A stretch of 64,000 bases of DNA from Oscillospiraceae bacterium (lineage in GTDB: Bacteria; Bacillota; Clostridia; Oscillospirales; Ruminococcaceae). Location of the stretch: contig JAEEXH010000002.1 in NCBI GenBank assembly GCA_016291435.1, positions 32,061 through 96,060 of the forward strand. The letters are read 5' to 3'. Within the stretch, counting starts at the first letter, position 1. The number at the start of each line of letters is the position of its first letter. Position numbers and translations under genes: made by a program. Shown one piece after another: positions 3,303 through 55,873 of the stretch. The notes under the pieces are model-generated. The model saw only the letters and a program-made list of their open reading frames with translations. It searched no databases and had not been told where the DNA came from.

Positions 3303-4448
3303 TTGTTTGACTTGATCGCAATTCCGCTCGGCTGGGTCATGTGGGCGATTTATCAGGTCGTCCACAACTACGGCATTTCTCTCGTGCTCTTTACATTATT
3401 CATCAAGCTCCTGACGCTCCCGAGTACCTATAAGATGCAGGTCAATACGGCGCGTATGGGACTGATCGCTCCGAAGATCGAGAAGATCAAAAAATCTTAC
3501 CCGAACAACCCGCAGCGCGTGCAGGAGGAGCAGACAAAGCTCTACGGACAGGAGGGCATCAATCCCGGCTCCGGCTGTCTGGGCAGCCTTGTCACGATGC
3601 TCCTGCTCTTCGGCGTCTACCGCGTTGTGCTGAAGCCGCTGACGCATATCCTGCACATCTCGAATGAAACACTCACGCAGGCACAGACCGCGCTTCAGAC
3701 ATGGCTCCAGGACAACAACATCACGGAGAAATATCTGACTGCGCGTCCGGAGCTGATTATGCTGAAATACGCAAAGTCGAATCCTGAGGCGTTTTCCGGC
3801 ATCGAGGGCTTCGCAGACAAGCTCCGCGGCTTCCAGAATAACTTCCTCGGCTTCGATCTCACCGGCACGCCTGAGCTGCACCCGGAGGTCTGGAGCAAGA
3901 CGGCGATCCTGCTGATCGCACTGCCTGTGCTCGCGGCAATCGCACAGCTCGCAATCACGATCGTCACACAGATGCGCCAGAAGAAGGTCAACCCGAATAT
4001 GCAGAGCATGGGCGGCATGAACGCGATGCTCTACGCCTCCCCGCTCATGACCGTCTGGATCGGCATGTCCACGCCGGCAGGTCTTTCGCTCTACTGGCTC
4101 GTCAACAGCATCCTGAGCCTTGTGATGATGGTGCTCATTTATAAGTATCTCGACAACAAGGAGCGCCTGCTTGCCATCAATGAGAAGGAAAAGCAGAAGC
4201 AGCTCAAGAAGGGTCCCGGCTTCATGCAGCGCATGATGGAGCAGTCCGCACAGATGCAGGCACAGCAGAACGGGACAAATAACCGCGGCGAAGCCAACCG
4301 CACCCGCTATGCAGACGGCGACGACGGCATGACCCGCAAGGAACGCGCTGAGTATGAACGCAAGCTCGTTGAAGCGGCAAGACGGCGCGCAGCAGAAAAA
4401 TACGGCGAAGAGCTCCCGGATTCCGACCCGGGGGATGACGATCTGTAA
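3303..4448 (+). CDS. yidC: YidC/Oxa1 family membrane protein insertase (likely TTG start)
   Basis: LFDLIAIPLGWVMWAIYQVVHNYGISLVLFTLFIKLLTLPSTYKMQ...; AGGAGG RBS just upstream of TTG 3303; ORF track start at 3132 is upstream of that RBS. Confidence 0.9.
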   Translation: MFDLIAIPLGWVMWAIYQVVHNYGISLVLFTLFIKLLTLPSTYKMQVNTARMGLIAPKIEKIKKSYPNNPQRVQEEQTKLYGQEGINPGSGCLGSLVTMLLLFGVYRVVLKPLTHILHISNETLTQAQTALQTWLQDNNITEKYLTARPELIMLKYAKSNPEAFSGIEGFADKLRGFQNNFLGFDLTGTPELHPEVWSKTAILLIALPVLAAIAQLAITIVTQMRQKKVNPNMQSMGGMNAMLYASPLMTVWIGMSTPAGLSLYWLVNSILSLVMMVLIYKYLDNKERLLAINEKEKQKQLKKGPGFMQRMMEQSAQMQAQQNGTNNRGEANRTRYADGDDGMTRKERAEYERKLVEAARRRAAEKYGEELPDSDPGDDDL

Positions 4449-4496
4449 AAACACGCAGATCCGCATAATTCAATTTGGAAAGGGGATTATGATCCG

Positions 4497-5534
4497 ATGG
4501 CATCTATGACAGAAATCTTTACCGCCCCCACGCTTGAGGAGGCGAAGCAGAAGGCGGCAGACGCATTCGGCGCGCCGGTTTCTGAGATCACATTCACAGT
4601 GATTGAGGAGCCGAAGCGCTCGATCCTGGGCGGCTTGTTCGGCAAGAAGGATGCAGAGTGCAAGGTCCGCGCTGAGTATCAGTCCGCAGAAGCACCGGAA
4701 GAGGAAACGGCATCCGAAGCAGTCAGCTCCGATGTTGTTGAGACGGCGGCTGAAGCTGTCGCTGACACAGCAGAGGAAACCGCCGATACGCCCGCAGCAG
4801 AGGAAAAGAACGACGACAGACCCGCCTGGGAGGATATCCCCGAGGAGATCCGTCTCGCAAAGATGCAGCTTGCAGTGGATTATCTTCAGCAGGTGCTCGC
4901 ACGGCTCAGCCCGGATGTGACTGTCAGCGCAAAGCTCGACAACGGCATCGCAATCACGCTTGAGGGTGACAATCCCGGCGTGCTGATCGGCAGACGCGGT
5001 GACACACTCGATGCACTTCAGTATCTCACCTCTATGGTCGCAAACCGCGGCGACAAGGACTATGTCCGCCTGACCATCGACGCTTGCGGCTACCGTACAA
5101 AGCGCCGCAAGGCACTCCAGGAGCTTGCACAGCGCATCAGCAAGAATGTGCTCCGCAGCGGCAGAAGCGTCGCGCTTGAGCCGATGAACCCCTATGAGCG
5201 CCGCATCATCCACTCGACCGTCACCGAGATCGAGGGCGTTTCGTCCCACAGCTCCGGCGAGGAGCCGTACCGCAAGGTGATCATCACCTCTGACTCCGCC
5301 CCTGCTTATAAACGCGATGACAAAAACGCGCGCGGGTATCGCAGCGGAAACGGCGGCAGACGCGACCGCAATGACCGCGGTGACAAGCGCGGCGGCAGAC
5401 GCGACCGCGGTGAGCGCCGTCCTCCGGTCGAGGCAAGAAAGCTCGATCTTTCGACCAGCTTCGAGCGCGACTACAAGCGTCCGAAGCCGGAGGATTCTCT
5501 CAACACCGGCGTTTACGGTAAAATTGATATCTGA
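4497..5534 (+). CDS. khpB: RNA-binding cell elongation regulator Jag/KhpB (Jag-N, KH, R3H)
   Basis: Jag-N domain, KH GVLIGRRGDTLDALQYLTSMV, R3H-like ALEPMNPYERRIIHSTV; acidic linker; basic tail. Confidence 0.92.
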   Translation: MASMTEIFTAPTLEEAKQKAADAFGAPVSEITFTVIEEPKRSILGGLFGKKDAECKVRAEYQSAEAPEEETASEAVSSDVVETAAEAVADTAEETADTPAAEEKNDDRPAWEDIPEEIRLAKMQLAVDYLQQVLARLSPDVTVSAKLDNGIAITLEGDNPGVLIGRRGDTLDALQYLTSMVANRGDKDYVRLTIDACGYRTKRRKALQELAQRISKNVLRSGRSVALEPMNPYERRIIHSTVTEIEGVSSHSSGEEPYRKVIITSDSAPAYKRDDKNARGYRSGNGGRRDRNDRGDKRGGRRDRGERRPPVEARKLDLSTSFERDYKRPKPEDSLNTGVYGKIDI

Positions 5535-5543
5535 GACTGACGG

Positions 5544-5576
5544 AAAGGGCGGCGGCAATGCTGCCCTTTTTGTTTT
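5544..5576 (+). terminator. Rho-independent terminator after khpB
   Basis: AAAGGGCGGC-ggcaat-GCTGCCCTTTTTGTTTT. Confidence 0.7.
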
Positions 5577-5626
5577 ATAAAAGCGCGTGTCTTCGCGAAA
5601 TCTAAAGCACTTGTAAGGAGCTTGTC

Positions 5627-6973
5627 ATGACAACGATCGCAGCAATTTCAACACCCCCTGCACAGGGCGGCATCGCAATGATCCGTGTCTCAGGCGAGAA
5701 TGCAATCGAAATATCGGAACATATGTTCTGTGCATATCAAAACAAAAAGCCGTCTGAAATGACAGGATATACCTGCGCCTACGGCGAAATCCGGGACGGC
5801 ACAGAGCGCATAGACGATGTGATTCTGACCGTATTCCGTGCGCCGCACAGCTACACAGGCGAGGATACGGTTGAAATCACCTGTCACGGCGGACTGTATG
5901 TATCACGGCGCATTCTCGGGCTGCTCTATCGCAGCGGCGCAGAGCCGGCAGGCCCCGGAGAGTTCACAAAGCGTGCATTTCTGAACGGCAAACTCTCGCT
6001 CTCACAGGCAGAAGCCGTCATGGATCTGATACGCGCTGACGGTGACGCTTCGCTCAGGCAGGCAAATTATGCACGCGAGGGCAGACTAGGCAAGCAAATG
6101 CAGGCTATCTGTGCAGCACTTACAGACCTGCTGTCAGCGATGACATACTGGCTCGATGACGCGGAGGAATTCCCGCCTGAGCTGTCGCCCGAACATCTTT
6201 CTGCGCAGATTACAAAAACAGCCGACAAACTGCACGACATGATCACGCACTATGATGACGGAAGAATGCTCAGAGAAGGGATCCGAACTGTCCTGCTCGG
6301 TCTGCCGAATGCCGGGAAATCCACGGTCATGAACTGGCTCTGCGGCGCGGATAAAAGCATTGTCACGGAATACGAGGGCACAACACGGGATGTGATCACG
6401 GAGCAGGTGCGCATCGGTGACTATACGCTGCTGCTTTCGGATACCGCCGGCATACGCGATACAGACAATCCGATTGAAACCATCGGCATCGCTGCTGCTT
6501 ACAAGGCGCTTGACGACGCAGATCTTGTCCTGTATACGGTCGATGCCGTGCGCGGGCTCAGGGACGAAGACCTGGAAGCACTCGCGCGCTGCGGTGCAAG
6601 ACATGTGATCATTCTCTGGAACAAAACGGATCTTCCGCACGAGGAATTGCCGGAATGCAGATATCCGATCGTTCCAATCGCCGCGAAAAGCAATCCTTCT
6701 CTCAATGTACTTGCAGATGCTCTGCATAATATTCTCGGTGATACCGTAACAGGAACATACATTTCCGCACTGAATGAACGTCAGCAACAAATTCTGGTTG
6801 CGGCATACGAGCGCATCTCGCAGGCTCAAACGATGCTCATTGAGGGTGCTCCCCTTGACCTCATATGCAGTGAACTGGAGATCGCGGCGAACAAGCTGGC
6901 GGAAATTGAGGGGAAGCAGGTCACAGACGATGTCATCGAAGGTGTTTTCGAGAAATTCTGTGTCGGAAAGTGA
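5627..6973 (+). CDS. mnmE: tRNA-5-carboxymethylaminomethyl-2-thiouridine synthesis GTPase MnmE
   Basis: TIAAISTPPAQGGIAMIRVSG..., G1 GLPNAGKST, DTAGIRDT, C-terminal FCVGK. Confidence 0.97.
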   Translation: MTTIAAISTPPAQGGIAMIRVSGENAIEISEHMFCAYQNKKPSEMTGYTCAYGEIRDGTERIDDVILTVFRAPHSYTGEDTVEITCHGGLYVSRRILGLLYRSGAEPAGPGEFTKRAFLNGKLSLSQAEAVMDLIRADGDASLRQANYAREGRLGKQMQAICAALTDLLSAMTYWLDDAEEFPPELSPEHLSAQITKTADKLHDMITHYDDGRMLREGIRTVLLGLPNAGKSTVMNWLCGADKSIVTEYEGTTRDVITEQVRIGDYTLLLSDTAGIRDTDNPIETIGIAAAYKALDDADLVLYTVDAVRGLRDEDLEALARCGARHVIILWNKTDLPHEELPECRYPIVPIAAKSNPSLNVLADALHNILGDTVTGTYISALNERQQQILVAAYERISQAQTMLIEGAPLDLICSELEIAANKLAEIEGKQVTDDVIEGVFEKFCVGK

Positions 6974-6974
6974 A

Positions 6975-6990
6975 TGTTCCACGTGGAACA
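6975..6990. promoter_or_regulatory. parS-like palindrome TGTTCCACGTGGAACA
   Basis: Perfect 16-bp palindrome, close to the ParB parS consensus TGTTNCACGTGAAACA. Confidence 0.85.
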
Positions 6991-7013
6991 TTGTGAAACA
7001 AATCAGATTATGA

Positions 7014-7029
7014 TGTTCCACGTGGAACA
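7014..7029. promoter_or_regulatory. parS-like palindrome TGTTCCACGTGGAACA
   Basis: Identical second copy 39 bp downstream, between mnmE and mnmG. Confidence 0.85.
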
Positions 7030-7040
7030 ATGGAGGAACT

Positions 7041-8918
7041 ATGGAACCAATACGAAGATTTGACGTCGGGGTCATCGGTGCAGGACATGCCGGAATCGAA
7101 GCAGCGCTTGCAAGCGCAAAACGCGGATGTAAAACTGCTTTGTTCACAATTTCGCTGGATCAGATTGGCAACATGCCCTGCAATCCTTCGATCGGCGGAA
7201 GCGCAAAAGGGCATCTGGTGCGTGAGATTGACGCGCTCGGCGGAATTATGGGCACCGCCGGAGATGCATGCTGCATTCAAATGCGGATGCTGAACAAAAG
7301 CAAAGGCGCATCCGTCCACAGCCCGCGTGCACAGGCAGACAGGCGGCTGTATCACGCATATACGAAGAAAATATGCGAAGATACACCAAATCTCGAAATC
7401 ATACAGACAGAAATTGCCGATATATGCATGGATGAAAGCAACCGCATCACAGGTGTAGTCAACGCATTCGGCGCAGTATTCGCATGCAAGGCGGTGATAC
7501 TCTGCACCGGTACATTCTTAAAAGGAATGATCTACATCGGCAGGCACGGTGAAGAAGGCGGCCCGGATGCATGTTTGCCTGCACGGAGGCTATCGCAGAG
7601 TCTTGCAAACGCAGGAATCAAACTCCGCAGATTCAAAACAGGCACACCTTGCCGCGTGCACCGCAGAAGCATAGATTACACCAAGTTGCAGCCGCAGTAC
7701 GGCGATGAAGATCCGCAGCCATTTTCCTTCGCGCACAGCGGTCAGCTCAGAAACGATGCCGTCTGCTATATCGCAAATACAAACGAAGAAACACATCGGA
7801 TTATACGCGAAAACATCGGAGAATCGCCGCTTTACAGCAAAATGATCAGCGGAGTCGGACCGAGATACTGCCCATCCATCGAGGATAAGGTCATACGGTT
7901 TGCCGAAAGAGAGCGGCACCAGATATTCGTAGAACCGACAGGATTTGACACTGAGGAAATGTATTTGCAGGGATTCAGCACCTCTCTGCCTGAATATGTG
8001 CAGATACAAATGCTGCGCAGCGTATCAGGGTTTGAGCACATCGAAATCATGCGGTCCGCATATGCAATCGAATATGACTGCATCAATCCGATCTGTCTCG
8101 ACCATACACTTGCATTCAAAGGGCTCCACGGCCTGTACGCAGCGGGACAATTCAACGGAACGTCCGGTTACGAGGAAGCTGCGGCGCAGGGATTAATCGC
8201 CGGAATCAACGCATCAGCGTACATTCGAGGTGATACGCCGATTGAACTGCAGCGCAGCAGTTCATACATCGGGACACTCATTGACGACCTTGTGACCAAG
8301 GGGACAGATGACCCCTACCGAATGATGACAGCTCGCAGCGAATACCGCCTGTCTCTCCGGCACACGACGGCAGACAAACGCCTGACTCCCATCGGGTATC
8401 AATATGGTCTGATCAGCGAAGAACGATACAAGAATTTTCAGTCTAAAATGGAGCATATTGAATCCGCAGTCGATCAAATCCGTAATATAACGCTCAAACC
8501 GACTGATGCACTGAACGAATATCTGCAAAACTGCGGCACATCACCAATCAGCCAGCCGCAAAAGCTGTATGCAATACTGAAACGCCCACAGGTGAAATTT
8601 CACGATATTACGAGTATTTGCGGCATCGACCTCAATTTGACAAAAGAGGAAGCAGACGAAGCAGAGCTCACTGTCAAATACGATGAATACATCGCCCGGC
8701 AGAACAGACAAAGCGAAGCGCTCAGTGAACTTGAGCGGATTCGCCTGCCGGAAGGACTGGATTACAGCCAGATTCACGGGATGTCCTCTGAGGCAATCGA
8801 AAAGCTGACGCGCATCCGCCCTTCCCAGCTTGCACAGGCATCCCGCATCTCCGGCGTTTCTCCGGCGGATATTTCGCTGATCATGACTTATCTGAAAGCA
8901 GGTGGATACCATGGATGA
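7041..8918 (+). CDS. mnmG: tRNA uridine-5-carboxymethylaminomethyl modification enzyme MnmG
   Basis: FDVGVIGAGHAGIEAALASAKRG..., MPCNPSIGGSAKGHLVREIDALGG. Confidence 0.97.
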   Translation: MEPIRRFDVGVIGAGHAGIEAALASAKRGCKTALFTISLDQIGNMPCNPSIGGSAKGHLVREIDALGGIMGTAGDACCIQMRMLNKSKGASVHSPRAQADRRLYHAYTKKICEDTPNLEIIQTEIADICMDESNRITGVVNAFGAVFACKAVILCTGTFLKGMIYIGRHGEEGGPDACLPARRLSQSLANAGIKLRRFKTGTPCRVHRRSIDYTKLQPQYGDEDPQPFSFAHSGQLRNDAVCYIANTNEETHRIIRENIGESPLYSKMISGVGPRYCPSIEDKVIRFAERERHQIFVEPTGFDTEEMYLQGFSTSLPEYVQIQMLRSVSGFEHIEIMRSAYAIEYDCINPICLDHTLAFKGLHGLYAAGQFNGTSGYEEAAAQGLIAGINASAYIRGDTPIELQRSSSYIGTLIDDLVTKGTDDPYRMMTARSEYRLSLRHTTADKRLTPIGYQYGLISEERYKNFQSKMEHIESAVDQIRNITLKPTDALNEYLQNCGTSPISQPQKLYAILKRPQVKFHDITSICGIDLNLTKEEADEAELTVKYDEYIARQNRQSEALSELERIRLPEGLDYSQIHGMSSEAIEKLTRIRPSQLAQASRISGVSPADISLIMTYLKAGGYHG

Positions 8919-9624
8919 CACACATCTTGCCGAAAAGATCACATTATTCCGACAGTATGGCATTGGCCTGAGCGAAGAAAACGCGGTATTATTGCAGAAA
9001 TTTGCCGACATGATGATCGCTGAATCAAAGATACAGAACATCACGGCTGTCACCGATCCGGACGCAATCTGGACGCGGCATTTTCTTGATTCTGCGTGCC
9101 TTTCCAGCTATTTGCCCTCTGAACAGAGTAAAATCATCGACATCGGAACCGGCGGCGGAATCCCCGGTATTCCGCTTGCAATTTTAAAGCGCGGCAGCGC
9201 GCACACTGTTCTTCTGGACAGCGAACTGCGGAAAATTGAATTCTGCGCCCGTGCTGCGAAAACGCTTGGGCTCAGCGCAGAAGCCAGATGCGCCCGCGCC
9301 GAGGAGCTGGCACAGGATCCCATTTACCGGGGAACATTCGATATTGCAGTCTCCCGCGCGATGACAAACGGCGCAATATTATGCGAAATGGCGATCCCGT
9401 TCCTGAAAGTCGGCGGAAAGCTGCTCGCGATGAAGGGCAAGAATTACTCCGAGGAAACAGAAGGGTTCGGCAAAGCTGCAAAGAAGCTCGGTGCGCACAT
9501 CGCAGAGGTCGTCCGGTATGAGATCGAAGGGGAAGAAAAACATCTGATCATTGTGCAGAAGGACTGTGAAACGCCGGCGCAATATCCGCGGAGATTCGCG
9601 AAAATCAAGCGATCCCCGCTGTAA
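8902..9624 (+). CDS. rsmG: 16S rRNA (guanine527-N7)-methyltransferase (start may be ATG 8911)
   Basis: NITAVTDPDAIWTRHFLDSA, IDIGTGGGIPGIPLAI. Confidence 0.95.
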   Translation: MDTMDDTHLAEKITLFRQYGIGLSEENAVLLQKFADMMIAESKIQNITAVTDPDAIWTRHFLDSACLSSYLPSEQSKIIDIGTGGGIPGIPLAILKRGSAHTVLLDSELRKIEFCARAAKTLGLSAEARCARAEELAQDPIYRGTFDIAVSRAMTNGAILCEMAIPFLKVGGKLLAMKGKNYSEETEGFGKAAKKLGAHIAEVVRYEIEGEEKHLIIVQKDCETPAQYPRRFAKIKRSPL

Positions 9625-9640
9625 TGTTCCACGTGGAACA
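9625..9640. promoter_or_regulatory. parS-like palindrome TGTTCCACGTGGAACA
   Basis: Third identical copy, between the convergent rsmG and SpoIID-like genes. Confidence 0.85.
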
Positions 9641-10627
9641 TCACTGCTTCCGCAGCTCTGTGCCCGGGTAATAATGCAGCAGGATTTCTTCGAAAGATGC
9701 GCCAGCAAGTGCCATCCGGTGCGCACCGTACTGGCTCATACCGACTGAATGCCCGTAGCCGTGAACAGTGAACACAAACTGCCGCTGTTCTGCATCATAC
9801 GCCGCTGAAAATGCAGCAGATCGCAGCGCAAGCGCCTGCCTGATGACGGCCCCGGTCAGATCCGAACCTGCAATCTCCATGCGCAGGACTGTGCCCGCGT
9901 CAGAATAGCTGCACGCACCCAACCACAAGGCCGGATCCTGCGGAAATGTCAGCGACGGCTCGGCTGCAACGAGTGACGCAGACAGCGTCTCAGGAGAAAA
10001 GCTGCACACAGTCTCAAATTGCGGCGCTGCACAATCCGCCTCAGATTCCACTGATACCAGATACGGCAGACTTGTGCCCCAAGCATTTTCTGCCGACTCC
10101 GTTTCGCCCGGAGAAACCGCATGAAACGCCGCTACGATCGGCGCGTTGTCATAATAGAGCACCAGATCACCGACCGCATCCACGGCATCGGTGATCTTTT
10201 TTCTGTTTTCCTCGTAGTGTGTGCCCCAGAGCAGGCGCATGTCCGTATCCGTGTAATACGCCTGATAACGGCTGCTGTCATCGGAGAAATCGGCATCCGG
10301 GAGACTGTCATCCGGCTGTGTCATATGAAGCTGATGCAGCCGTTCTGCATAGGTATGTGACGCGATCACCTGTGCACACAATGCCTCATGCGCATAGTCA
10401 GCCGGCATCTCAGCAGCCACAGCGCCAATCAGATAGTCACGCACAGGCACTTGTTCAACAGTGTCTGTCTTTGTTATATATATACTGTAATACCGCGTAT
10501 CTTCGTTATTTTCATGATCCGATTCATTTACATTCAGACGGCTGTGCCATTGACCGAATGCAGCCGTTGACGGGATCGCCAGCATCAGCAGCCCCGAGAG
10601 CAGTGCCGACCTGATCAGTTTCTGCAT
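9641..10627 (-). CDS. spoIID: SpoIID/LytB-domain protein (stage II sporulation protein D-like)
   Basis: Internal start MQKLIRSALLSGLLMLAIPS (signal/TM), VPVRDYLIGAVAAEMPADYAHEALCAQVIASHTYAE, C-terminal VHGYGHSVGMSQYGAHRMA; GGAGG upstream. Confidence 0.88.
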   Translation of the reverse strand: MQKLIRSALLSGLLMLAIPSTAAFGQWHSRLNVNESDHENNEDTRYYSIYITKTDTVEQVPVRDYLIGAVAAEMPADYAHEALCAQVIASHTYAERLHQLHMTQPDDSLPDADFSDDSSRYQAYYTDTDMRLLWGTHYEENRKKITDAVDAVGDLVLYYDNAPIVAAFHAVSPGETESAENAWGTSLPYLVSVESEADCAAPQFETVCSFSPETLSASLVAAEPSLTFPQDPALWLGACSYSDAGTVLRMEIAGSDLTGAVIRQALALRSAAFSAAYDAEQRQFVFTVHGYGHSVGMSQYGAHRMALAGASFEEILLHYYPGTELRKQ

Positions 10628-10678
10628 AATACGCCTCCGTTCGACCCGCGCTTCCGGACAAATGTTTGCAATTATCCA

Positions 10679-10707
10679 TTGACAGCGGGAGAAAAATGCT
10701 GTATAAT
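10679..10707 (+). promoter_or_regulatory. Sigma-A-type promoter for citrate synthase (TTGACA - 17 - TATAAT)
   Basis: TTGACA 10679-10684, TATAAT 10702-10707. Confidence 0.7.
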
Positions 10708-10765
10708 AGTAGGATAGAATGGTATAAATCTGCTCAGAAGCAGCAGCATAGAAAGGACACTCCCT

Positions 10766-12142
10766 ATGAATCAACACGATCACACTGCCACTCTCCGCAC
10801 TCTATGCGAGGAGCTGCGCAGTTATTCCACACTGGATCCCGCGCTCTATCAGAAATATCAGGTCAACCGCGGGCTGCGCCGCTCCGACGGCACCGGCGTT
10901 GTGGCAGGCATCACCAAGATCTGCAATGTCCACGGCTATGTCATCAATGAAGGCGAGCTGGATCCGATCCCCGGCGAGCTCATTTACCGCGGCTATCAGA
11001 TCACGGATCTCGTACACGCGGTCGAAAAGGACAACCGCTTCGGATTTGAAGAAGTGGCCTATCTGCTGCTGTTCGGCAAGCTCCCGACGGCAGATCAGCT
11101 CAGTGAATTTCAGCAGCTTCTTGCAGAAAACCGTGAGCTGCCCGACGGCTTTATCATCGACATGATCGCGAAGGCGCCGTCCAAAAACATCATGAACAAG
11201 ATGGCGCGCTCTGTGCTCGCACTCTACTCCTACGACGACGACTGCGAGGTGCGCACACTCGAAAACGAAGTGCGCATTGCAATTTCGATGATTGCGCGGC
11301 TGCCTGTCATCATGACCGCGGCATATCAGGTGAAGCGGCAGCATTTTGACGGCGAGAGCTTCATCCTGCACCCGACCAGACCCGAGGAATGCAACGCGCA
11401 GACGATTCTTTCGCTGCTGCGTCTCGACCGGCAGTATACACCCGAGGAAGCGCATCTGCTCGACATCTGCATGATGCTGCACGCAGAGCACGGCGGCGGC
11501 AACAACTCCGCGTTCACCTGCCGTGTGCTGACATCCTCCGGCACAGACCCCTATTCTGCATATTCCGCTGCAATCGGCGCACTGAAGGGCTTCCGTCACG
11601 GCGGCGCCAATATCAAAGCCGTCGAGCAGCTTCACCTCTTCCGCGAGCGCATCAAGAATCCCGATGACGAGGGCGCAATCGCCGATCTGCTCAGAAAGAT
11701 CCTCCGGCGCGAGGAGGGTGACGGCGCAGGGCTTGTCTACGGTATGGGTCATGCGGTCTATACCCTCTCTGACCCGCGTGCGCTGCTGCTCAAGGAGAAG
11801 GCCTATGAGCTGGCAAAGGGCACAGAGCATGAGCGTGATTTCAAGCTGCTCAGTGCGATCGAGCGCATCACGCCGGAGCTTGTGCGCGAAAAATCCGCAA
11901 GAGCCGCGGCGAAGAATGTCTGCGCGAATGTTGACCTCTACTCCGGTCTTGTCTATGAGATGCTCGGCATCCCGAGCGATCTGCTGACGCCGATGTTTGC
12001 AGTCTCGCGCATCGCGGGCTGGGCGGCACACCGCATCGAAGAAGTGCTGACCGGCGGCAGAATCATCCGCCCGGCATATAAATCCATCACAAAAACAACC
12101 GCATATGTCCCGCTGGCGGAGCGCACCGCCCAGACGAAATGA
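10766..12142 (+). CDS. gltA: Citrate/2-methylcitrate synthase
   Basis: ELIYRGYQITDLVHAV, LHAEHGGGNNSAFTCRVLTSSGTDPYSAYSAAIGALKGFRHGGAN, GMGHAVYTLSDPRA. Confidence 0.93.
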   Translation: MNQHDHTATLRTLCEELRSYSTLDPALYQKYQVNRGLRRSDGTGVVAGITKICNVHGYVINEGELDPIPGELIYRGYQITDLVHAVEKDNRFGFEEVAYLLLFGKLPTADQLSEFQQLLAENRELPDGFIIDMIAKAPSKNIMNKMARSVLALYSYDDDCEVRTLENEVRIAISMIARLPVIMTAAYQVKRQHFDGESFILHPTRPEECNAQTILSLLRLDRQYTPEEAHLLDICMMLHAEHGGGNNSAFTCRVLTSSGTDPYSAYSAAIGALKGFRHGGANIKAVEQLHLFRERIKNPDDEGAIADLLRKILRREEGDGAGLVYGMGHAVYTLSDPRALLLKEKAYELAKGTEHERDFKLLSAIERITPELVREKSARAAAKNVCANVDLYSGLVYEMLGIPSDLLTPMFAVSRIAGWAAHRIEEVLTGGRIIRPAYKSITKTTAYVPLAERTAQTK

Positions 12143-13479
12143 TCCGCAGACTGCTGAGCGGCATGCTTGCCGCGTTCCTGACGGTGCAGCTTCCGTCCTG
12201 CGCGTTTTCCGGCAATGTCGAAACGATGCTCTCTCCGCCCCGTCTGACGGTTGAGCAGGAGAATATCTACCGCGCCTTACAGGCGGCAGTCGGCAGCTCT
12301 GTCAGCCTGAAATATCCGAAATCGGGCGAGCGGCTCTCCGCTTTTACGGTCGAGGATCTTGACGGCGACGGACAGGATGAAGCAATCGTCTTTTACGAGA
12401 GCAGCCGAAGCACGGAGGATGAGAACCGCCTGCGGCTCGGGCTGCTGGCACAGGAGGACGGCACATGGCGCGCAATGGCGGAATACCCGACGGCGGGCGC
12501 TGAGGTCGAGCGCATCGACATTGAACAGCTCGGCACAAATTCCCGCAAGAATCTCGTCATCCGATACAGCGTTGTAGACGGCGCAAACCGCACCGCAGAG
12601 GTGCTGCATTATGACGACAAGGCGCTGACCCGCACGCTCTCGCTGCCCTATTCCCGCATGAGCGTCACAGACCTGGACGGCGACGGCACACGCGAGCTGC
12701 TGGTGCTCTCGGGCTCCACAACCTCTGCAACAGCCTCCGCGACTGTCTATGCACTGGATGAAAAAGGCAGCTATCTGCAAACATCCGCACAGCTTCCCGA
12801 AACAGTTACGGAGATCAGTTCCATCGGCTATGGCACGGTTCCCGCGCTGTACGGCACCGGACAGATCCCCGCGATCTTTGTGGACGGCAGCTCCGGCGCA
12901 ACCACTGCGCAGACGGTCGTGCTCTCCTATGCGGACAGCGCACTCACACTTGTTTACACCGACAGCCCCGACCGCTTCCCGAATACATCCCGTCCCGCCG
13001 GTCTCCTGACGGCTGACCTGAACGGCGACGGCGAGCCTGAGATTCCGGTGCAGACTGTTTTCTACGGCTACGCAAACGCGGAGGACGGCTCCCCGCTCAG
13101 CATGACGAACTGGTATGTCTGCCGCGGCGGTGTGCTGATGCTCGAATATTCCTCCTACTACGCCGTGCAGGAGGGCTATGTCTTCCTGCTGCCGAAGCGC
13201 TGGGAGCGCAGGGTCACGGCAGTCCCGGAGGATGAGGAGATCGTCTTCTATGAATATGATCCCGACACGCAGAAGGAGGACGGCAGCCCCGTGCTCCGCG
13301 CCCCGCTGCTGCGGCTCCGCACCGTGACAGATCCCGTGCAGGCAGATAATTTACAGGAAAACGGCTATCTGCTGATTCAGAAGCGCGGCGGCAGCTATTA
13401 CCTCGCGAACGCAGAATCCGGCAGCGCCTCGCTCACACTGACACAGAGCGAGCTGCTCTTTGCAATGAAATATCTATGA
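12139..13479 (+). CDS. Putative lipoprotein with VCBS/FG-GAP-like DxDGDG repeats
   Basis: N-terminal signal with Cys (LPSCAFSG), repeated DLDGDGQDEAIV / DLDGDGTRELLV / DLNGDGEPEIPV; ATGA overlap with the citrate synthase stop. Confidence 0.7.
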   Translation: MIRRLLSGMLAAFLTVQLPSCAFSGNVETMLSPPRLTVEQENIYRALQAAVGSSVSLKYPKSGERLSAFTVEDLDGDGQDEAIVFYESSRSTEDENRLRLGLLAQEDGTWRAMAEYPTAGAEVERIDIEQLGTNSRKNLVIRYSVVDGANRTAEVLHYDDKALTRTLSLPYSRMSVTDLDGDGTRELLVLSGSTTSATASATVYALDEKGSYLQTSAQLPETVTEISSIGYGTVPALYGTGQIPAIFVDGSSGATTAQTVVLSYADSALTLVYTDSPDRFPNTSRPAGLLTADLNGDGEPEIPVQTVFYGYANAEDGSPLSMTNWYVCRGGVLMLEYSSYYAVQEGYVFLLPKRWERRVTAVPEDEEIVFYEYDPDTQKEDGSPVLRAPLLRLRTVTDPVQADNLQENGYLLIQKRGGSYYLANAESGSASLTLTQSELLFAMKYL

Positions 13480-13504
13480 ACCGAATGAAAGGCAGGTGCT
13501 TTGA

Positions 13505-14218
13505 ATGAAGCGTGTACTGGTCTGTGAGGATGAAGACGTCATCCGCGAATTTGTGGTCATCAATCTGAAGCGCGCAGGCTACGATGTGGTCGATGTGAGC
13601 TGCGGCGAGGATGCCCTCACCATGTTCGATCAGGAGAACGGCAATTTTGACATTGTGCTGCTCGACATCATGATGCCCGGCATCGACGGATTCACCGTCT
13701 GCAAGCGGCTCAGAGAGCGTTCCTCCACCATCGGCATCATCATGCTGACGGCGAAGGCGCAGGAGATGGACAAGGTCAACGGCCTGATGATTGGCGCAGA
13801 TGACTACATCACCAAGCCCTTTGCCCCCTCGGAGCTCACCGCCCGCGTCGATGCGATCTACCGCAGAGTCTGCATGAGCTTCATGAAGACCGAGAAGACC
13901 ACCGTGCTCGAATCGGGCCCGTTTGTGCTCAATCTCAAGAGCCGCACCATCACCAAGAACGGCAAGCCGATCGACCTCACGCAGGTGGAATATCAGATCC
14001 TCGAATATTTCCTCAACAACAAGAATACCGCTCTTGACCGTGCGAGCATTCTCTCGCATATCTGGGGCGACAGCTACTACGGCGACAACAAGATCGTCGA
14101 TGTCAACATCCGCCGCATCCGCATGAAGATCGAGGATGACCCCTCCGATCCGAAGTATATCATCACAATCTGGGGCTACGGCTACAAGTGGGAAGAGAAC
14201 CCGGATAACCGCCGGTAA
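13505..14218 (+). CDS. OmpR/PhoB-family response regulator
   Basis: VLVCEDEDVIREFVVINLKRAGYDVV, DIVLLDIMMPGIDGF, C-terminal winged helix NKIVDVNIRRIRMKIEDDPSDPKYIITIWGYGYKW. Confidence 0.95.
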   Translation: MKRVLVCEDEDVIREFVVINLKRAGYDVVDVSCGEDALTMFDQENGNFDIVLLDIMMPGIDGFTVCKRLRERSSTIGIIMLTAKAQEMDKVNGLMIGADDYITKPFAPSELTARVDAIYRRVCMSFMKTEKTTVLESGPFVLNLKSRTITKNGKPIDLTQVEYQILEYFLNNKNTALDRASILSHIWGDSYYGDNKIVDVNIRRIRMKIEDDPSDPKYIITIWGYGYKWEENPDNRR

Positions 14219-14233
14219 AGGAGACGCCGCATC

Positions 14234-15682
14234 ATGGCGAAAAAAAGCATTACCCGCCGCTGGATCCTCAATAACCTCGGCGTGATCGTGCTGATCCTGC
14301 TGGCGATCGAGCTGGCGCTGATCTACGGCGTGCAGAGCTATTTCTATAACTCCGCACGCACCTACATGGTCTCGAAGATCAATGCCGTCAACGGCGTCCT
14401 GACAAACTACGCGCGCGCCTCGGGCACAAACCTCAACACAGAGCTCCGCCGCACGCTTGAGACCTTCTCCGACAAGGACAAGATGGAGCTCATGGCGATC
14501 GACTATGACGGCATGATCGTCCTCACCTCCTCGGGATTCTCTCCCGACTACGAGATCAGCATGCCGGACTACGATGCCGCGATGCACGGCACCGGCAGCT
14601 ACGGTTACAGCACCTCCGTCACAGAAAACGGCGAACGCATCATGGCGGTCAGCATCCCGATCACGGAGATCAGCGGCGAATACAGCGCGATCCGTGTTGT
14701 CACATCGCTGGAAACCATCGACGAGACCATCCGCGCATTTGTCCTCTGGATGACGCTGCTGGCAGTGGCGATTCTGCTGCTGCTCGGTCTCTCCGACCTC
14801 TACTTCGTCGGACTGATCCTGCGCCCGATCCGCGAGATCAACGCGAACACGGAAAAATTTGCACAGGGCGATTTCAGCGCACGCATCCGGCAGGAGAGCG
14901 AGGATGAGATCGGCGAGCTCTGCCGCGGCATCAACCACATGGCTGACGAGCTCTCGACCGCAGAAACGATGAAAAACGAATTCATCAGCTCCGTCTCGCA
15001 CGAGCTCCGCACGCCGCTCACGGCAATCAAGGGCTGGGCGGAAACGCTCACCTACATGGCAGAGCCCCCGAGCGAAGGGGAACCGGCTGAGCCTGCCGAT
15101 CCCGAAATGATGCGGAAGGGTCTGCGCGTCATCGTCGGCGAGACAGAGCGCCTCTCGGAAATGGTCGAGGAGCTGCTCGATTTCTCGCGCATGCAGAGCG
15201 GTCACTTCACGCTGCAAATGGCAACAATGGATGTGCTCGCTGAGCTCGGCGACGCGGTGCTCATCTATATGGAGCGCGCAAAGAAGGATGACATCCGCCT
15301 GACTTACTCGGAGCCTGAGAACCTGCCGTTCATCATCGGCGACAAGAACCGCATCCGGCAGGTCTTCATCAATGTCATCGACAACGCGATCAAATATACC
15401 GAAAAGGGCGGCTTTGTCGCAGTCACCGCAGAGGCGGCAGAAAACGACACCCTCGTCCGCATCACCGTGCAGGATACCGGCTGCGGCATCAAGCAGTCCG
15501 ATCTTGCAAAGGTCAAGACAAAATTCTATAAACCGAACCACACCAAGCGCGGCTCCGGCATCGGGCTGGCAGTCGCCGATGAGATCATTTCGCTGCACAA
15601 GGGCACACTGGAGCTTGAGAGCGAGGAGGGTGTCGGCACAACCGTCATCATCACGCTCCCGGCAAAGCCGAAGGAAGGCTGA
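14234..15682 (+). CDS. Sensor histidine kinase (TM-HAMP-HisKA-HATPase)
   Basis: HAMP region, SSVSHELRTPLTAIKGWAETL, NVIDNAIKYTEKGG, GSGIGLAVADEII. Confidence 0.95.
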   Translation: MAKKSITRRWILNNLGVIVLILLAIELALIYGVQSYFYNSARTYMVSKINAVNGVLTNYARASGTNLNTELRRTLETFSDKDKMELMAIDYDGMIVLTSSGFSPDYEISMPDYDAAMHGTGSYGYSTSVTENGERIMAVSIPITEISGEYSAIRVVTSLETIDETIRAFVLWMTLLAVAILLLLGLSDLYFVGLILRPIREINANTEKFAQGDFSARIRQESEDEIGELCRGINHMADELSTAETMKNEFISSVSHELRTPLTAIKGWAETLTYMAEPPSEGEPAEPADPEMMRKGLRVIVGETERLSEMVEELLDFSRMQSGHFTLQMATMDVLAELGDAVLIYMERAKKDDIRLTYSEPENLPFIIGDKNRIRQVFINVIDNAIKYTEKGGFVAVTAEAAENDTLVRITVQDTGCGIKQSDLAKVKTKFYKPNHTKRGSGIGLAVADEIISLHKGTLELESEEGVGTTVIITLPAKPKEG

Positions 15683-25391: not shown

Positions 25392-26945
25392 TTACTCCCA
25401 CTCCACCGTCCCCGGGGGCTTCGATGTAATATCATACACCACGCGGTTCACATGCGCGACCTCATTGCAGAGGCGGTTGGAAACACGCGCCAGCACATCA
25501 TAGGGGATGCGTGCCCAGTCTGCGGTCATGAAGTCATCGGTCGTGACGGCGCGAATCGCAATGAGATGTTCGTAGGTTCTGTGGTCGCCCATGACGCCGA
25601 CCGTATGCACATCGGGGAGCACGGCGAAGAACTGTTTGAGTTCCCGCGCAATGCCGCTCTTTTCAATTTCATCGCGGAAGACGGCGTCTGCCTCCTGCAA
25701 AATGCGGATCTTCTCCTCGGTGATCTCGCCGAGGATGCGCACGCCGAGACCCGGTCCCGGGAAGGGCTGCCGCCACACGAGCTCTGAGGGGATGCCCAGC
25801 TTCTCGCCAACCGCACGCACCTCATCCTTGAAAAGATCGCAGAGCGGCTCGATCACGCCGTCAAACTGAATATCTTCGGGCATCTTCACCATATTGTGAT
25901 GGGTCTTGATGACAGCGGTGCTGCCCTGCCCTGCCTCGTTGCCTCTGCCGCTTTCAATGCGGTCGGGATAGATCGTGCCCTGTGCAAAGAAGCCCTCAGC
26001 GCCGGTTTCGCGGATCTTATCCCAGAAGACATTGTAAAATTCCGTGCCGATGATCCTGCGCTTCTGCTCCGGGTCGGTGACGCCGCGGAGCTTTTCGAGA
26101 AACTGCTTCCCGCAGTTCACGCGGACAAAATTCATGTCAAAGAGCTTTGTGAAGGTCTGCTCGACGAAATCGCCCTCATCCTTGCGCATAAGCCCCTGAT
26201 CGACAAAGACACAGGTGAGCTGTCTGCCGACGGCGCGGCTTAAAAGTGCCGCTGCGACAGAAGAATCGACGCCGCCGGAGAGACCGAGCACAACCTTCTT
26301 ATCGCCGATCTCCGCACGGAGCCGCTGCACCGTGGTCTCGATGAAATCATCCATCACCCAGTCGCCGGTGAAGCCGCAGACTTCATAGAGGAAATTGTGC
26401 AGGATCTGCCTGCCGAAGACGCTGTGTGTGACCTCCGGGTGAAACTGCACCGCATAGACCTTCTGCGCAGGATTCTCAAAGGCGGCGCAGGGGCAGTCTG
26501 CGGAATGCGCGGTGACGGTGAAGCCCTCGGGGAGGCGGCTCACAAAATCCGTGTGGCTCATCCAGACGGTGCTCTGCTGCGGGACATCTTTGAAGAGGAC
26601 GCTTTCGGCATCCGCAGTAATCTCGATTTTGCCGTATTCCGATTTTTCGCAGGCAGAGACCGCGCCGCCGAGCGTATAGGCGACAAGCTGGCAGCCGTAG
26701 CAGATGCCGAGCACGGGCACGCCGAGCGAGAAGATCTCTTTTCCGATATGCGGGGAGCTTTCGTCATAGACGCTGTTGGGGCCGCCGGTGAAGATGATGC
26801 CGGCGGGCTTTCTGGCTGCGATCTCAGAGAGCGGGGTGTCATAGCGCAGGATCTCGCAGTAGACGCCGCATTCACGGACGCGCCGCGCGATCAGCTGGTT
26901 ATACTGCCCGCCGAAATCCAGCACAATGCAGAGCTGATTTGCCAT
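25392..26945 (-). CDS. guaA: GMP synthase (glutamine-hydrolysing)
   Basis: VLDFGGQYNQLIARRVRECGVY, GICYGCQ, VLGLSGGVDSSVAAALL, C-terminal KPPGTVEWE. Confidence 0.98.
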   Translation of the reverse strand: MANQLCIVLDFGGQYNQLIARRVRECGVYCEILRYDTPLSEIAARKPAGIIFTGGPNSVYDESSPHIGKEIFSLGVPVLGICYGCQLVAYTLGGAVSACEKSEYGKIEITADAESVLFKDVPQQSTVWMSHTDFVSRLPEGFTVTAHSADCPCAAFENPAQKVYAVQFHPEVTHSVFGRQILHNFLYEVCGFTGDWVMDDFIETTVQRLRAEIGDKKVVLGLSGGVDSSVAAALLSRAVGRQLTCVFVDQGLMRKDEGDFVEQTFTKLFDMNFVRVNCGKQFLEKLRGVTDPEQKRRIIGTEFYNVFWDKIRETGAEGFFAQGTIYPDRIESGRGNEAGQGSTAVIKTHHNMVKMPEDIQFDGVIEPLCDLFKDEVRAVGEKLGIPSELVWRQPFPGPGLGVRILGEITEEKIRILQEADAVFRDEIEKSGIARELKQFFAVLPDVHTVGVMGDHRTYEHLIAIRAVTTDDFMTADWARIPYDVLARVSNRLCNEVAHVNRVVYDITSKPPGTVEWE

Positions 26946-26965
26946 AGGGTTCCTCCTTTAGAAGT

Positions 26966-27042
26966 GTCGCTGATGCGACGGGATTTATAATGGGGCTCTG
27001 CCCCAAACCCCGCTGGGGATAGCGATCCCCAGACCCCTGCTT
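26966..27042. repeat. Dispersed multi-hairpin repeat, copy 1
   Basis: GTCGCTGATGCGAC ... GGGGCTCTGCCCC AAACCCCGC TGGGGATAGCGATCCCCA GACCCC. Confidence 0.7.
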
Positions 27043-27116
27043 ATAAATAACATAAGATATTATAGCATATTATGCGGGAAAATTCAAGCGCAAATTTGCG
27101 GGTTCCGGGTCAAGGC

Positions 27117-27165
27117 GCGCACTTCTTATAGGGGGTGCGCTTCTTGCGCTTCTTGCGCGCCTTAC
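27117..27165 (+). repeat. Left inverted-repeat arm with 9-bp iteron-like units (TGCGCTTCT)
   Basis: GCGCACTTCTTATAGGGGGTGCGCTTCTTGCGCTTCTTGCGCGCCTTAC; inverted partner at 28329-28385. Confidence 0.8.
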
Positions 27166-27336
27166 TCCGTCATATTGCTGCGATCTGCACTGCACAAACC
27201 TGTGTCTCTTGTGCATATCACAGAATCTTGTTTGTTATATGAAAAAAGTTGTACGCCGACATACAACTTTTGCGGAAAAAGCCGCTGTATGTAGAGGGGG
27301 AAGTCCCCTCACGGCTGACTGCGAAAGGAGTTTTAC

Positions 27337-28332
27337 ATGGCAGAAGAAAAGACTTTGGAACAGGCGCTTCAGGAAAACGGCTCGCTGATCTTTCTCGACG
27401 GTGTGGAGAAGAAAGAGACCCGCTGGCTCTGGTATCCGTACATCCCGCTCGGGAAGGTGACGATCCTCATGGGCGACCCCGGAGAGGGCAAATCGACCTT
27501 TGCCCTGAATCTTGCCGCTGCGGTGACAAGGGGGATGCAGTTCCCGGAGACGCACCAAATCGTGACAGCGCCGGATTATGTCCTCTATCAGAATGCGGAG
27601 GACGGGCTCGGCGACACCATCTGCCCGCGGCTTGAGAAAGCAGGTGCGGATCTCCGCCTGGTCATGACGATCAACGAGATGAAGGAGAATGCCGACATGC
27701 AGAGCACGATGCTCTATGAGATCATCTCGAAGATCAGACCGAAGCTGGTGATCCTGGATCCGCTGCAAGCCTATCTCGGCGATCATGTGGACATGCACAG
27801 AGCCAATGAGGTCAGACCCGTGATGCGCTATCTTGCGATGCTTGCCGATCACTTCGGCTGCGCCATTGTCCTCATCGGGCACATGAACAAGAAAGCCGAC
27901 CTGAAATCGCTTTACCGCAGCATCGGCAGCATTGACCTCACGGCTGCGGCAAGATCTGTCCTGCTTGTCGGGCGCGACCCCTCAGAGCCCGCGCGCAGAG
28001 TGATTGCACAGGTGAAGAATTCACTGGCTCCCGAGGGGGAAAATGTCGCATTCACGATCAATGACGGGGTCTTTCACTTCGAGGGCGTCTGCGATGTGCC
28101 GACAGAACGGCTGCTCTCCCAGAGAGAGCGCAGGGTCACCCCGCGCGACAGGGCGGCTGAATGCCTGACCCGCTGGCTGACCGAACACGGGGAGATCTCC
28201 GTGCGCGAGATCTATGACATGGCATGCGGGGAGGAAATCACAAAAGCAGCGCTTCTGCGGGCAAAAGCATCACTTGGCATTCATGCGCACAGGCAGAATA
28301 ATCAGTGGTACTGGTCGCTTCCGAAAGCGTAA
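27337..28332 (+). CDS. RepA/AAA_25-like RecA-fold ATPase with C-terminal winged-helix-like region
   Basis: Walker A GDPGEGKST, Walker B-like RPKLVILDPLQAYLGD, IVLIGHMNKK, C-terminal RAAECLTRWLTEHGEISVREIYDMACGEEITKAALLRAKASLGI; RBS GAAAGGAG. Confidence 0.8.
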   Translation: MAEEKTLEQALQENGSLIFLDGVEKKETRWLWYPYIPLGKVTILMGDPGEGKSTFALNLAAAVTRGMQFPETHQIVTAPDYVLYQNAEDGLGDTICPRLEKAGADLRLVMTINEMKENADMQSTMLYEIISKIRPKLVILDPLQAYLGDHVDMHRANEVRPVMRYLAMLADHFGCAIVLIGHMNKKADLKSLYRSIGSIDLTAAARSVLLVGRDPSEPARRVIAQVKNSLAPEGENVAFTINDGVFHFEGVCDVPTERLLSQRERRVTPRDRAAECLTRWLTEHGEISVREIYDMACGEEITKAALLRAKASLGIHAHRQNNQWYWSLPKA

Positions 28333-28385
28333 GGCGCGCAAGAAGCGCAAGGAGAGCAAGAAGCGCACCCCCTTATAAAGTGCGC
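28329..28385 (-). repeat. Right inverted-repeat arm, one more 9-bp unit than the left arm
   Basis: Reverse complement GCGCACTTTATAAGGGGGTGCGCTTCTTGCTCTCCTTGCGCTTCTTGCGCGCCTTAC; begins at the ATPase stop codon. Confidence 0.8.
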
Positions 28386-28523
28386 TTCTTAAAATGTAAA
28401 GCAGGGAGCACGACATGTTCAATAGCTGCGAACAGCAGCGTCAACGGTCTGTCATTGGGCGTCTTCGGTTGGGCTCCCGGAGGCAAAACGCCAGCACGGG
28501 CTCCGTGCTTCACAATTTCCCTC

Positions 28524-28552
28524 TTGCAATTCCCTGTAAAATGTGCTATAAT
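28524..28552 (+). promoter_or_regulatory. Sigma-A-type promoter for kor operon (TTGCAA - 17 - TATAAT)
   Basis: TTGCAA 28524-28529, TATAAT 28547-28552. Confidence 0.6.
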
Positions 28553-28616
28553 AATAGATACGCTGAGGCGCAATGCCGGCGGCGCACATTAAAAACGGAA
28601 AGGACTGATATGGACT

Positions 28617-31437: not shown

Positions 31438-32463
31438 ATGACTTATATTCTGGCTGCACTTGCCGTCATCCCGGCAATCATCGTGATGCTTTACATCCGG
31501 GGAATTGACAAAATCGAGAAGGAGCCCTGGAAGCTGCTGTTTTCCATTTTGCTCCTCGGCGCGCTCAGCGTCATCCCGATCATGATCGCGGAGCTGATTG
31601 TCGATATCCCCATCAGCATTTTCCCGGAGGGCTCGCTGATTCACGGCTTCTTGCAGGCGTTTGTCTGCGCGGCATTCGTGGAGGAGAGCTTCAAGATGAT
31701 GGTGCTCTGGCTGCGCACATGGAAGCACAAGGAATTCAACTACGTCTTCGACGGCGTGGTCTATGCGGTCTTTGCCTCGATGGGCTTTGCACTTGTGGAG
31801 AATATCCTCTATGTGTTCCAGATGGGCATTACCACGGGCATCCTGCGCGCCGTGACATCCATTCCGGGGCATATGATCTTCGGCGTCTTCATGGGCATGT
31901 ATTACGGCCTTGCAAAGCGGGAAGCGCTCCTCAGAAATGAAAGCGGCAGAAAGAGATATATGATTCTCACATGGCTTGTGCCCGTCATGCTGCACGGCAT
32001 CTATGATTTCTGCCTGATGGTGAACAGCTGGGTGATGCTGCTCATCGGCATTGTCTATTATATCGTGCTGGTGATCTACGCTTTCCGCAAGCTCTCGCGC
32101 ATCCGCAAGGAGGACGCACCGCTCCCGCAGGAAACACCCGTGCCCCCCTATCCGCCGTATCCGGGATACCCGCAGAATCCGGTGTATCCGCAGAATCCGG
32201 CATATCCCCAGAATCCGACATATCCGCAGAATCCGGGATACCCCCAGAATCCGGTGTATCCGCAGAATCCGGCATATCCCCAGAACCCGACATATCCCCA
32301 GAATCCGGCATATCCCCAGAACCCGGTGTATCCGCAGAATCCTGTCACCCCCCAGAGCCCGGTGTACCCGCAGAATCCTGTCACCCCGCAAAGCCCGGCA
32401 TACCCGCAGAATCCGCCTGTCCCGCCCGCACAGGATCCCGCTGACCCCGCAGATCCGCGCTGA
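31438..32463 (+). CDS. prsW: PrsW-family intramembrane metalloprotease with C-terminal YPQNP repeat tail
   Basis: FVEESFKMMVLW, FDGVVYAVFASMGFALVENILYV, HMIFGVFMGMYYGLAK, LHGIYDF; low-complexity Pro/Gln/Asn tail. Confidence 0.85.
   Translation: MTYILAALAVIPAIIVMLYIRGIDKIEKEPWKLLFSILLLGALSVIPIMIAELIVDIPISIFPEGSLIHGFLQAFVCAAFVEESFKMMVLWLRTWKHKEFNYVFDGVVYAVFASMGFALVENILYVFQMGITTGILRAVTSIPGHMIFGVFMGMYYGLAKREALLRNESGRKRYMILTWLVPVMLHGIYDFCLMVNSWVMLLIGIVYYIVLVIYAFRKLSRIRKEDAPLPQETPVPPYPPYPGYPQNPVYPQNPAYPQNPTYPQNPGYPQNPVYPQNPAYPQNPTYPQNPAYPQNPVYPQNPVTPQSPVYPQNPVTPQSPAYPQNPPVPPAQDPADPADPR
32164..32415 (+). repeat. 14 x 18-bp tandem repeat encoding [V/A/T/G]YPQNP
   Basis: Contiguous in-frame units (GYPQNP VYPQNP AYPQNP TYPQNP ...), two variant VTPQSP units. 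Confidence 0.95.
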
Positions 32464-54628: not shown

Positions 54629-55873
54629 ATGCAGGCAATAAAATGTGAGCTTTGCGGCGGCAATCAGCTGATCAAGAAGGACGGCTTTTTCCAGTGTGAA
54701 TTCTGCGGCACGAAATATACGCTTGAGGAGGCGCGCAAGCTGTTTGTCAGCGGAACGGTCTCCGTTGAGGGCGATGTCAAAACAAAAGATGCCGATTTCA
54801 TTGTCAAGGCAGGCAAGCTGAAAAAGTATAACGGCAAATCGACCGATGTGGTGATTCCCGAAAATGTCAAGGTGCTGGGAGACTTCTGCTTTAGTGGTCT
54901 CAATATTGAGACAGTTGTGATTCCAAGCAGCGTGACAACGATCGGTTATCGTGCTTTTGCCGGTTGCACGAGCTTGACCTCAATCGAGATTCCAAGCAGC
55001 GTGGTAGAAATCGGATGGGATGCTTTTGCCGGCTGCACAAGTCTGACCTCGGTCAGGATTCCGGGCAGTGTGAAAGAAATCGGCTCGGATGCTTTTGCCG
55101 GCTGCACAAGTCTGACCTCGATCGAGATTCCGAGCAGTGTAAAAAGAATTGGCAGTGACGCTTTTTCTGACTGTAAGAGTTTGTCCTCAGTTCAAATTTC
55201 AGACAGATTGATGTTCATCGGTGATTTTGCTTTTAAGGGCTGCGAAAGATTGATTTCAGTTCATATTTCGGACAGCTTAACAGAGGTAGAAAAGAAAAAT
55301 CTCAGATTTGACCCTGACTGGATAGATAGTTATATCGGTAACAATGCTTTTATGTATTGTAAGTGCTTGACCTCAATCGAGATTCCGAGCATCGTGAAAG
55401 AAATCCGCAGGTATGCTTTTTCCGGCTGCACGAGCTTGACTTCGATCAAGATTCCAGACAGCGTGATAGAAATCGGTGAGTGTGCTTTTGACGGCTGCAC
55501 GAGCTTGACTTCGATCAAGATTCCGAGCAGCGTGACAAAAATCGGTGATCGTGCTTTTTCCGGCTGCAAGAGCCTGACCTCGATCGAGATTCCGAGCAGC
55601 GTGACAAAAATCGGTGATCGTGCTTTTTCCGGCTGCAAGAGCCTGACCTCGATCGAGATTCCAGACAGCGTGACAGAAATCGGTGAGCATGCTTTTTCCG
55701 ACTGCACATCTCTTGATCCGGCAAAGATCAGAATATCCCCAAGAAAACAACAGATTTTTACAGGGTTACTAAAAAAAGGTTATTGTGAAAAATGCGCCGG
55801 ACCGCTGGAAAAGAGACAAGTGGGCGGTTATGTATGCTCCAGATGCGGTGCTATATATCTGATGCTTTTCTAA
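54629..55873 (+). CDS. BspA-like leucine-rich repeat protein with zinc-ribbon-like modules at both ends
   Basis: N-terminal CELCGGNQLIKKDGFFQCEFCGTKY; about 23-aa IPSSVTKIGDRAFSGCKSLTSIE repeats; C-terminal CEKCAGPLEKRQVGGYVCSRCGAIY; no signal peptide. Confidence 0.88.
   Translation: MQAIKCELCGGNQLIKKDGFFQCEFCGTKYTLEEARKLFVSGTVSVEGDVKTKDADFIVKAGKLKKYNGKSTDVVIPENVKVLGDFCFSGLNIETVVIPSSVTTIGYRAFAGCTSLTSIEIPSSVVEIGWDAFAGCTSLTSVRIPGSVKEIGSDAFAGCTSLTSIEIPSSVKRIGSDAFSDCKSLSSVQISDRLMFIGDFAFKGCERLISVHISDSLTEVEKKNLRFDPDWIDSYIGNNAFMYCKCLTSIEIPSIVKEIRRYAFSGCTSLTSIKIPDSVIEIGECAFDGCTSLTSIKIPSSVTKIGDRAFSGCKSLTSIEIPSSVTKIGDRAFSGCKSLTSIEIPDSVTEIGEHAFSDCTSLDPAKIRISPRKQQIFTGLLKKGYCEKCAGPLEKRQVGGYVCSRCGAIYLMLF
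55520..55657 (+). repeat. Two perfect tandem copies of a 69-bp LRR-encoding unit within a longer degenerate array
   Basis: ATTCCGAGCAGCGTGACAAAAATCGGTGATCGTGCTTTTTCCGGCTGCAAGAGCCTGACCTCGATCGAG at 55589; copy at 55520 near-identical. Confidence 0.9.

Follow-up and report, generated by a model that had tools for sequence, protein, structure and literature searches.

The window analysed here, a stretch of 64,000 nucleotides from an Oscillospiraceae bacterium, carries a solitary ATPase gene set between two inverted repeat arms, and the question was what such a unit represents. The initial annotation had left open a minimal mobile element or a replicon remnant. The segment 27112–28390 (left arm, ATPase gene, and right arm) is probably a small REPIN/RAYT-like mobile element whose sole gene encodes an ATPase and not a transposase. 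A mobile element with the arms as its termini fits best with the recurrence at other sites, the arm pairs, and the sister species, while a replicon remnant is less likely because the ORF is intact and its relatives are under purifying selection (dN/dS 0.17–0.29).

The left arm (27112–27165, plus strand) forms a hairpin AAGGCGCGCA...TGCGCGCCTT with the inner stem GCGCAC/GTGCGC and the loop TTCTTATAGGGG, followed on the inner side by 2.6 units of the 9-bp repeat TGCGCTTCT. Its inverted copy, the right arm (28329–28390, minus strand), consists of the hairpin AAGAAGCGCAC-TTTATAAGGGG-GTGCGCTTCTT (28358–28390) and then 9-bp repeats, and overlaps the ATPase stop codon (TAA, 28330–28332), as had been annotated before. 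The previously given arm coordinates and sequences were correct (left, GCGCAC...GCCTTAC at 27117–27165), with an outer stem starting at 27112. Alignment of the left against the right arm scored 58, compared with at most 26 for shuffled flanks, and as single-stranded DNA the arms folded with z = −4.3 (left) and −4.1 (right). The exact unit TGCGCTTCTTGCGC is unique to the locus in its own genome, where diverged arm copies occur elsewhere. Between the arms, the ATPase gene (27337–28332, plus strand) is the only gene, and integrase and relaxase genes are absent. The left flank (26946–27111, minus strand) is the guaA 5′ region, with guaA itself at 25392–26945 on the minus strand; the palindrome CGCAAATTTGCG (27089–27100), noted earlier as lying just outside the arm, is present as part of this guaA upstream region, but was not seen upstream of the guaA genes of relatives. 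In the right flank (28391–28616, plus strand), a dispersed BIME-like repeat (28391–28530; also represented by L244 and L245) adjoins the arm and is followed by the kor promoter region, the ferredoxin-like kor subunit beginning at 28617. Elsewhere in the window, a membrane-protein gene carries at its 3′ end (32149–32415) a proline-rich tandem repeat of the YPQNP type with periods of 18, 36, and 72 bp, and at 54952–55707 there are tandem repeats of 69 bp that probably belong to a gene for a repetitive protein.

The encoded protein (331 aa) is a lone AAA_25 ATPase of the RecA-fold, RepA/RadA-like helicase type, as annotated initially, with the Walker motifs, the RecA fold, and the AAA_25 domain of RepA-type ATPases all present (Pfam AAA_25, E-value 2e-29). 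In the AlphaFold2 model (pLDDT 90.8), the RecA core is followed by a C-terminal helix-helix-helix-beta-hairpin (residues 269–327; 28141–28317, plus strand), which was read by inspection of the modelled secondary structure as a winged helix. The closest solved folds (Foldseek) were RadA and RSF1010 RepA, and the same two proteins were matched by PDB profiles (E-values 3e-11 and 2.7e-6, respectively). PADLOC returned weak matches at most (mad8, 6e-5).

A scan of contigs with the single protein yielded no homologues; an alignment-based scan recovered them in 18 of 30 genomes of the genus (E-value ≤ 1e-20) and, at a stricter E-value of 1e-60, in 34 of 394 genomes of the order. Arms were assessed on 147 unique loci with both flanks available, using an inverted-flank score of 33 as the threshold and 437 cross-paired flanks as controls (99th percentile 28, maximum 42). 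Thirteen loci reached the threshold, the lowest scoring 38; because the control maximum was 42, this weakest case (L008) leans also on its hairpin and its copies. The order-level search added further homologues, none of them armed above the threshold. In the phylogenetic tree, eight arm-bracketed ATPases fell into one clade of 11 solo ATPases (support 99/97). Two further members of this clade (L019 and L034) are cut by contig ends, with a one-sided arm or an arm pair visible, and no arms were seen at L007. Three more arm-bracketed ATPases (L093, L095, and L109) form a second supported clade. Left and right arms match within a locus, but arm sequences are unrelated between genomes, and the repeat unit varies in sequence and in length (4, 7, 8, or 9 nt); the 9-bp units first described as iterons are better called the inner tails of hairpins. 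As single-stranded DNA, 11 of 15 arms folded with z ≤ −2.8. Arms consist in part of simple-sequence repeats at L011, L012, and L093, which makes these weaker evidence, and the flanks of L023 and L088 resemble other repeat families.

As a background, the same procedure was applied to 1.08 Mb of sequence from three genomes (G000, G025, and G004), where inverted flanks were found at 7 of 619 other genes (1.1%; galT, cysS, an EF-G, and an hsdR gene among others), against 8 of 11 in the clade (Fisher p = 2e-12, a value that overstates independence because the clade members are related). Within 684 kb of the window's own genome, four others of 388 genes tested had inverted flanks scoring at least 38. 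One galT gene of this genome (L246, 2211–4290, contig C39) lies inside long inverted repeats of another family. Armed ATPases stand alone, in gene surroundings that differ by species (e.g., pheST, hypD, rmuC, and rpoB, some named by inspection), so that copies with inverted arms in related genomes, which the initial annotation had suggested looking for, indeed recur at different sites. The own genome holds one paralogue (65%) between lepA and thrS, also within inverted arms but with a different, 7-bp unit (GGCAAAT). Viral and most other relatives are without arms, and the few unarmed relatives whose neighbours were read adjoin integrase, excisionase, MobC/relaxase, or recombinase genes.

Seven genomes were queried with their arms, and places beyond the ATPase copy were found in six: four in G010, six in G025, three in G004, one each in G024 and G027, and two in G000 (C27 and C149, both mosaics of several repeat families). 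The seventh, G021, has only the pair beside its ATPase. Twenty of the 23 arm pairs, sorted by hand, are inverted with the tandem repeats pointing inward (13 of 16 for copies without the ATPase), and the other three are on the same strand or irregular. Per genome, the structure is one or two ATPase genes plus gene-less end pairs, miniature copies included, at other places. A C-terminal ATPase remnant lies between the arms at G010:C21, whereas arms enclose a KptA (RNA 2′-phosphotransferase) gene at G025:C9 and an unknown membrane protein at G004:C86. The ends of all four copies in G004, one of which carries the ATPase, align (TTCAACAGTTTCAACA...TAAGGATGAATTCTTG). Stem changes are compensatory, as in GCGCAC/GTGCGC versus ACTCAC/GTGAGT at G000 C27, and TATAAGG-like loops were read in several unrelated arm families. 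No target-site duplication, another feature proposed for inspection at the outset, was seen at the copies inspected. The Y1 transposase (PF01797) is absent from all seven queried genomes and occurs in 3 of the 30 genus genomes, none of them queried, which rules out Y1/RAYT as the mover in the genomes searched. Genomes of the genus are also rich in other REP-like families, some of which reach dozens of copies in genomes without Y1 transposases.

The sister pair G020/G024 allowed sites to be compared directly. At G024:C85, a 440-bp element with two hairpins is flanked by sequence 94–97% identical to that of G020, which has a single hairpin at the same site; its middle was either lost or never present, and the sequences fit an insertion as well as a deletion. 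In G020 (genome about 94% complete), there is no ATPase, and the thresholds applied brought up no further arms of this family. Arms without any ATPase had been named as an observation that would speak against the proposed unit; such arms do exist, yet in genomes that carry the ATPase, where they are additional copies; the one ATPase-free sister examined has only this solo hairpin of the family. In G020, the site of the G024 ATPase is taken up by an arm-less island of 12 kb that encodes a putative tyrosine integrase, and the site therefore presents no clean empty footprint. This island (L362, contig C43, reverse strand 3650–15635) also encodes a 1592-aa protein. The comparison of empty with occupied guaA loci that had been envisaged gave no clean empty site either, nor did that of lepA loci, because local gene order differs in the relatives.

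The initial annotation had overlooked a 28-nt dyad in the ATPase upstream region (AAAAGTTGTACGCCGACATACAACTTTT, i.e., AAAAGTTGTACG-CCGA-CATACAACTTTT; 27244–27271, no strand assigned), a candidate operator or promoter element. With a loose pattern, it was found in 9 of 13 armed versus 3 of 134 other loci, and thus recurs upstream of most arm-bracketed relatives. It also precedes terS-terL (own genome C57; G004 C61) and tail-like operons, as well as several noncoding loci that are repeated, and was dropped as a marker of the ATPase element alone since it occurs genome-wide. Rfam gave no credible match on the dyad loci. As the dyad is common to terminase and tail-like phage operons, it is plausible that the ATPase is induced together with a resident phage-like regulon. 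The dyad is carried by a compact terS-terL cluster, to which portal and major head genes are added in G004, and by tail-like operons located apart from it (L364, own genome C57:109748; L370/L388, G004 C61; L387, own genome C67); together they resemble a phage or gene-transfer-agent-like system that is split and possibly domesticated. The noncoding loci downstream of the dyad (L366–L368 and L371–L373 in G004; L377–L381 in G025) are conserved within each genome.

Several other accounts of the locus were weighed. The arms may be REP-like repeats moved by an unknown recombinase or by template switching, with the ATPase as cargo or a bystander caught between two of them. KptA and the membrane protein between arms, as well as the abundance of other REP-like families, agree with such an origin, which we nevertheless consider unlikely given that the ATPase clade is bracketed in 8 of 11 cases, in genomes whose arm families are unrelated, compared with 1.1% of genes in the background, that no Y1 transposase is present in the queried genomes, and that the ATPase-free sister genome kept a lone hairpin of the family. 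The view of the arms as ordinary terminators, attenuators, or chance repeats draws on the right arm starting on the stop codon and forming a hairpin; a mirror-image copy upstream of the gene, the missing U-tract, and the 1.1% background oppose it, and the copies elsewhere together with the sister-species data make it very unlikely, the least probable of all readings considered.

Two further accounts start from the gene and not from the arms. The ATPase could be a scattered gene of the resident domesticated phage-like (GTA-like) system, its arms serving as secondary insulators or regulatory hairpins. This is distinctly improbable: the dyad shared with the terS-terL and tail-like operons of the own genome and G004 and the otherwise phage- or IME-borne ATPase family speak for it, but the arms recur without the gene, mostly paired, and vary from one genome to the next, no arms bracket the terS operons, the site changes between species, and the related genomes G020 and G028 keep dyads yet have no ATPase. 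A fossil iteron replicon, in which the rep ATPase and iterons of a plasmid or IME were left in the chromosome, would account for the RepA fold, the 9-bp repeats, and the location of the unarmed relatives read in IMEs with a relaxase or integrase. It is highly improbable in view of arm sequences that are independent per locus and inverted on both sides, the gene-less copies, the lack of other replicon genes, and the selection still acting on the ATPase.

For the ATPase-only hairpin element, mobility and the link between ATPase and arms rest on comparison of sequences, by which the arms are tied to the ATPase clade, genome-specific, and found as inverted pairs elsewhere, with an ATPase-deleted derivative, presence or absence between sisters, and purifying selection. 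Against this preferred reading stand the lack of a nuclease within the element and the occasional bracketing of other genes (galT, cysS, EF-G) by inverted repeats in a genus full of REP-like repeats. We infer that the ATPase binds the arms and that a strand-breaking step follows. The ATPase would be expressed from the promoter region shared with the phage-like regulon, and its oligomer would bind the repeat/hairpin ends and open them; the segment may then be copied into a new position by replication or recombination of the host, or with the help of a nuclease provided in trans, and the ATPase could act in trans on gene-less pairs as well. More tentatively, the element might represent a new class in which a RepA/RadA-like ATPase spreads hairpin-ended DNA without an encoded nuclease, via enzymes of the host or the phage regulon, with the arms co-diversifying with the ATPase. 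It would open to experiment the question of how DNA could be mobilised by an ATPase of the helicase type, and offers a lead on the function of the uncharacterised lone AAA_25 ATPases of gut Clostridia.

Compared with known systems, the ATPase resembles RadA/Sms in fold (best match 8rxc, TM-score 0.55 over the query) but lies far below the NCBIfam RadA cut-off (24 versus 403 bits). It shares the RecA fold with the hexameric helicase RSF1010 RepA (1g8y/1nlf), which it matches by both profile and fold, and its direct relatives are AAA_25 RepA-like ATPases of IMEs, plasmids, and phages that sit beside relaxases and integrases in IMEs. It differs from this kin in its extra C-terminal winged helix and as a solo chromosomal gene with inverted arms and no rep, relaxase, or integrase gene. 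Iteron replicons have other replication genes and direct-repeat iterons at one origin, whereas here a single gene has inverted arms on both sides; the integrase or relaxase of phage satellites and IMEs is absent between the arms and present beside unarmed relatives. Gene-less copies with terminal inverted repeats and an internal-deletion derivative recall MITEs and autonomous DDE transposons, but no transposase or target-site duplication was seen at the copies inspected, and the termini are hairpins with tandem repeats. The closest layout is that of RAYT/REPIN systems, where a lone gene with hairpin repeats has been described around a Y1 transposase (PMC2817692, PMC3116915). Here, too, a lone gene lies between two inverted hairpin repeats, these recur elsewhere as gene-less inverted doublets, and their sequence is genome-specific with compensatory stem changes. 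The element differs in encoding an AAA_25 RecA-fold ATPase in place of Y1 (PF01797), in lacking a GTAG/GTGG head beside its hairpins (arms read directly), in the inward tandem repeats of 4–9 bp and the often TATAAGG-like loop, and in pairs spaced 0.4–1.7 kb apart at few places (about 2–7 per genome). No ATPase counterpart of this layout was found in the open-access literature searched, which was covered in part. At present, Y1 transposases are taken to account for hairpin families of the REP type; with a family tied to an ATPase without a nuclease, bacteria would have a second means of harbouring small hairpin elements.
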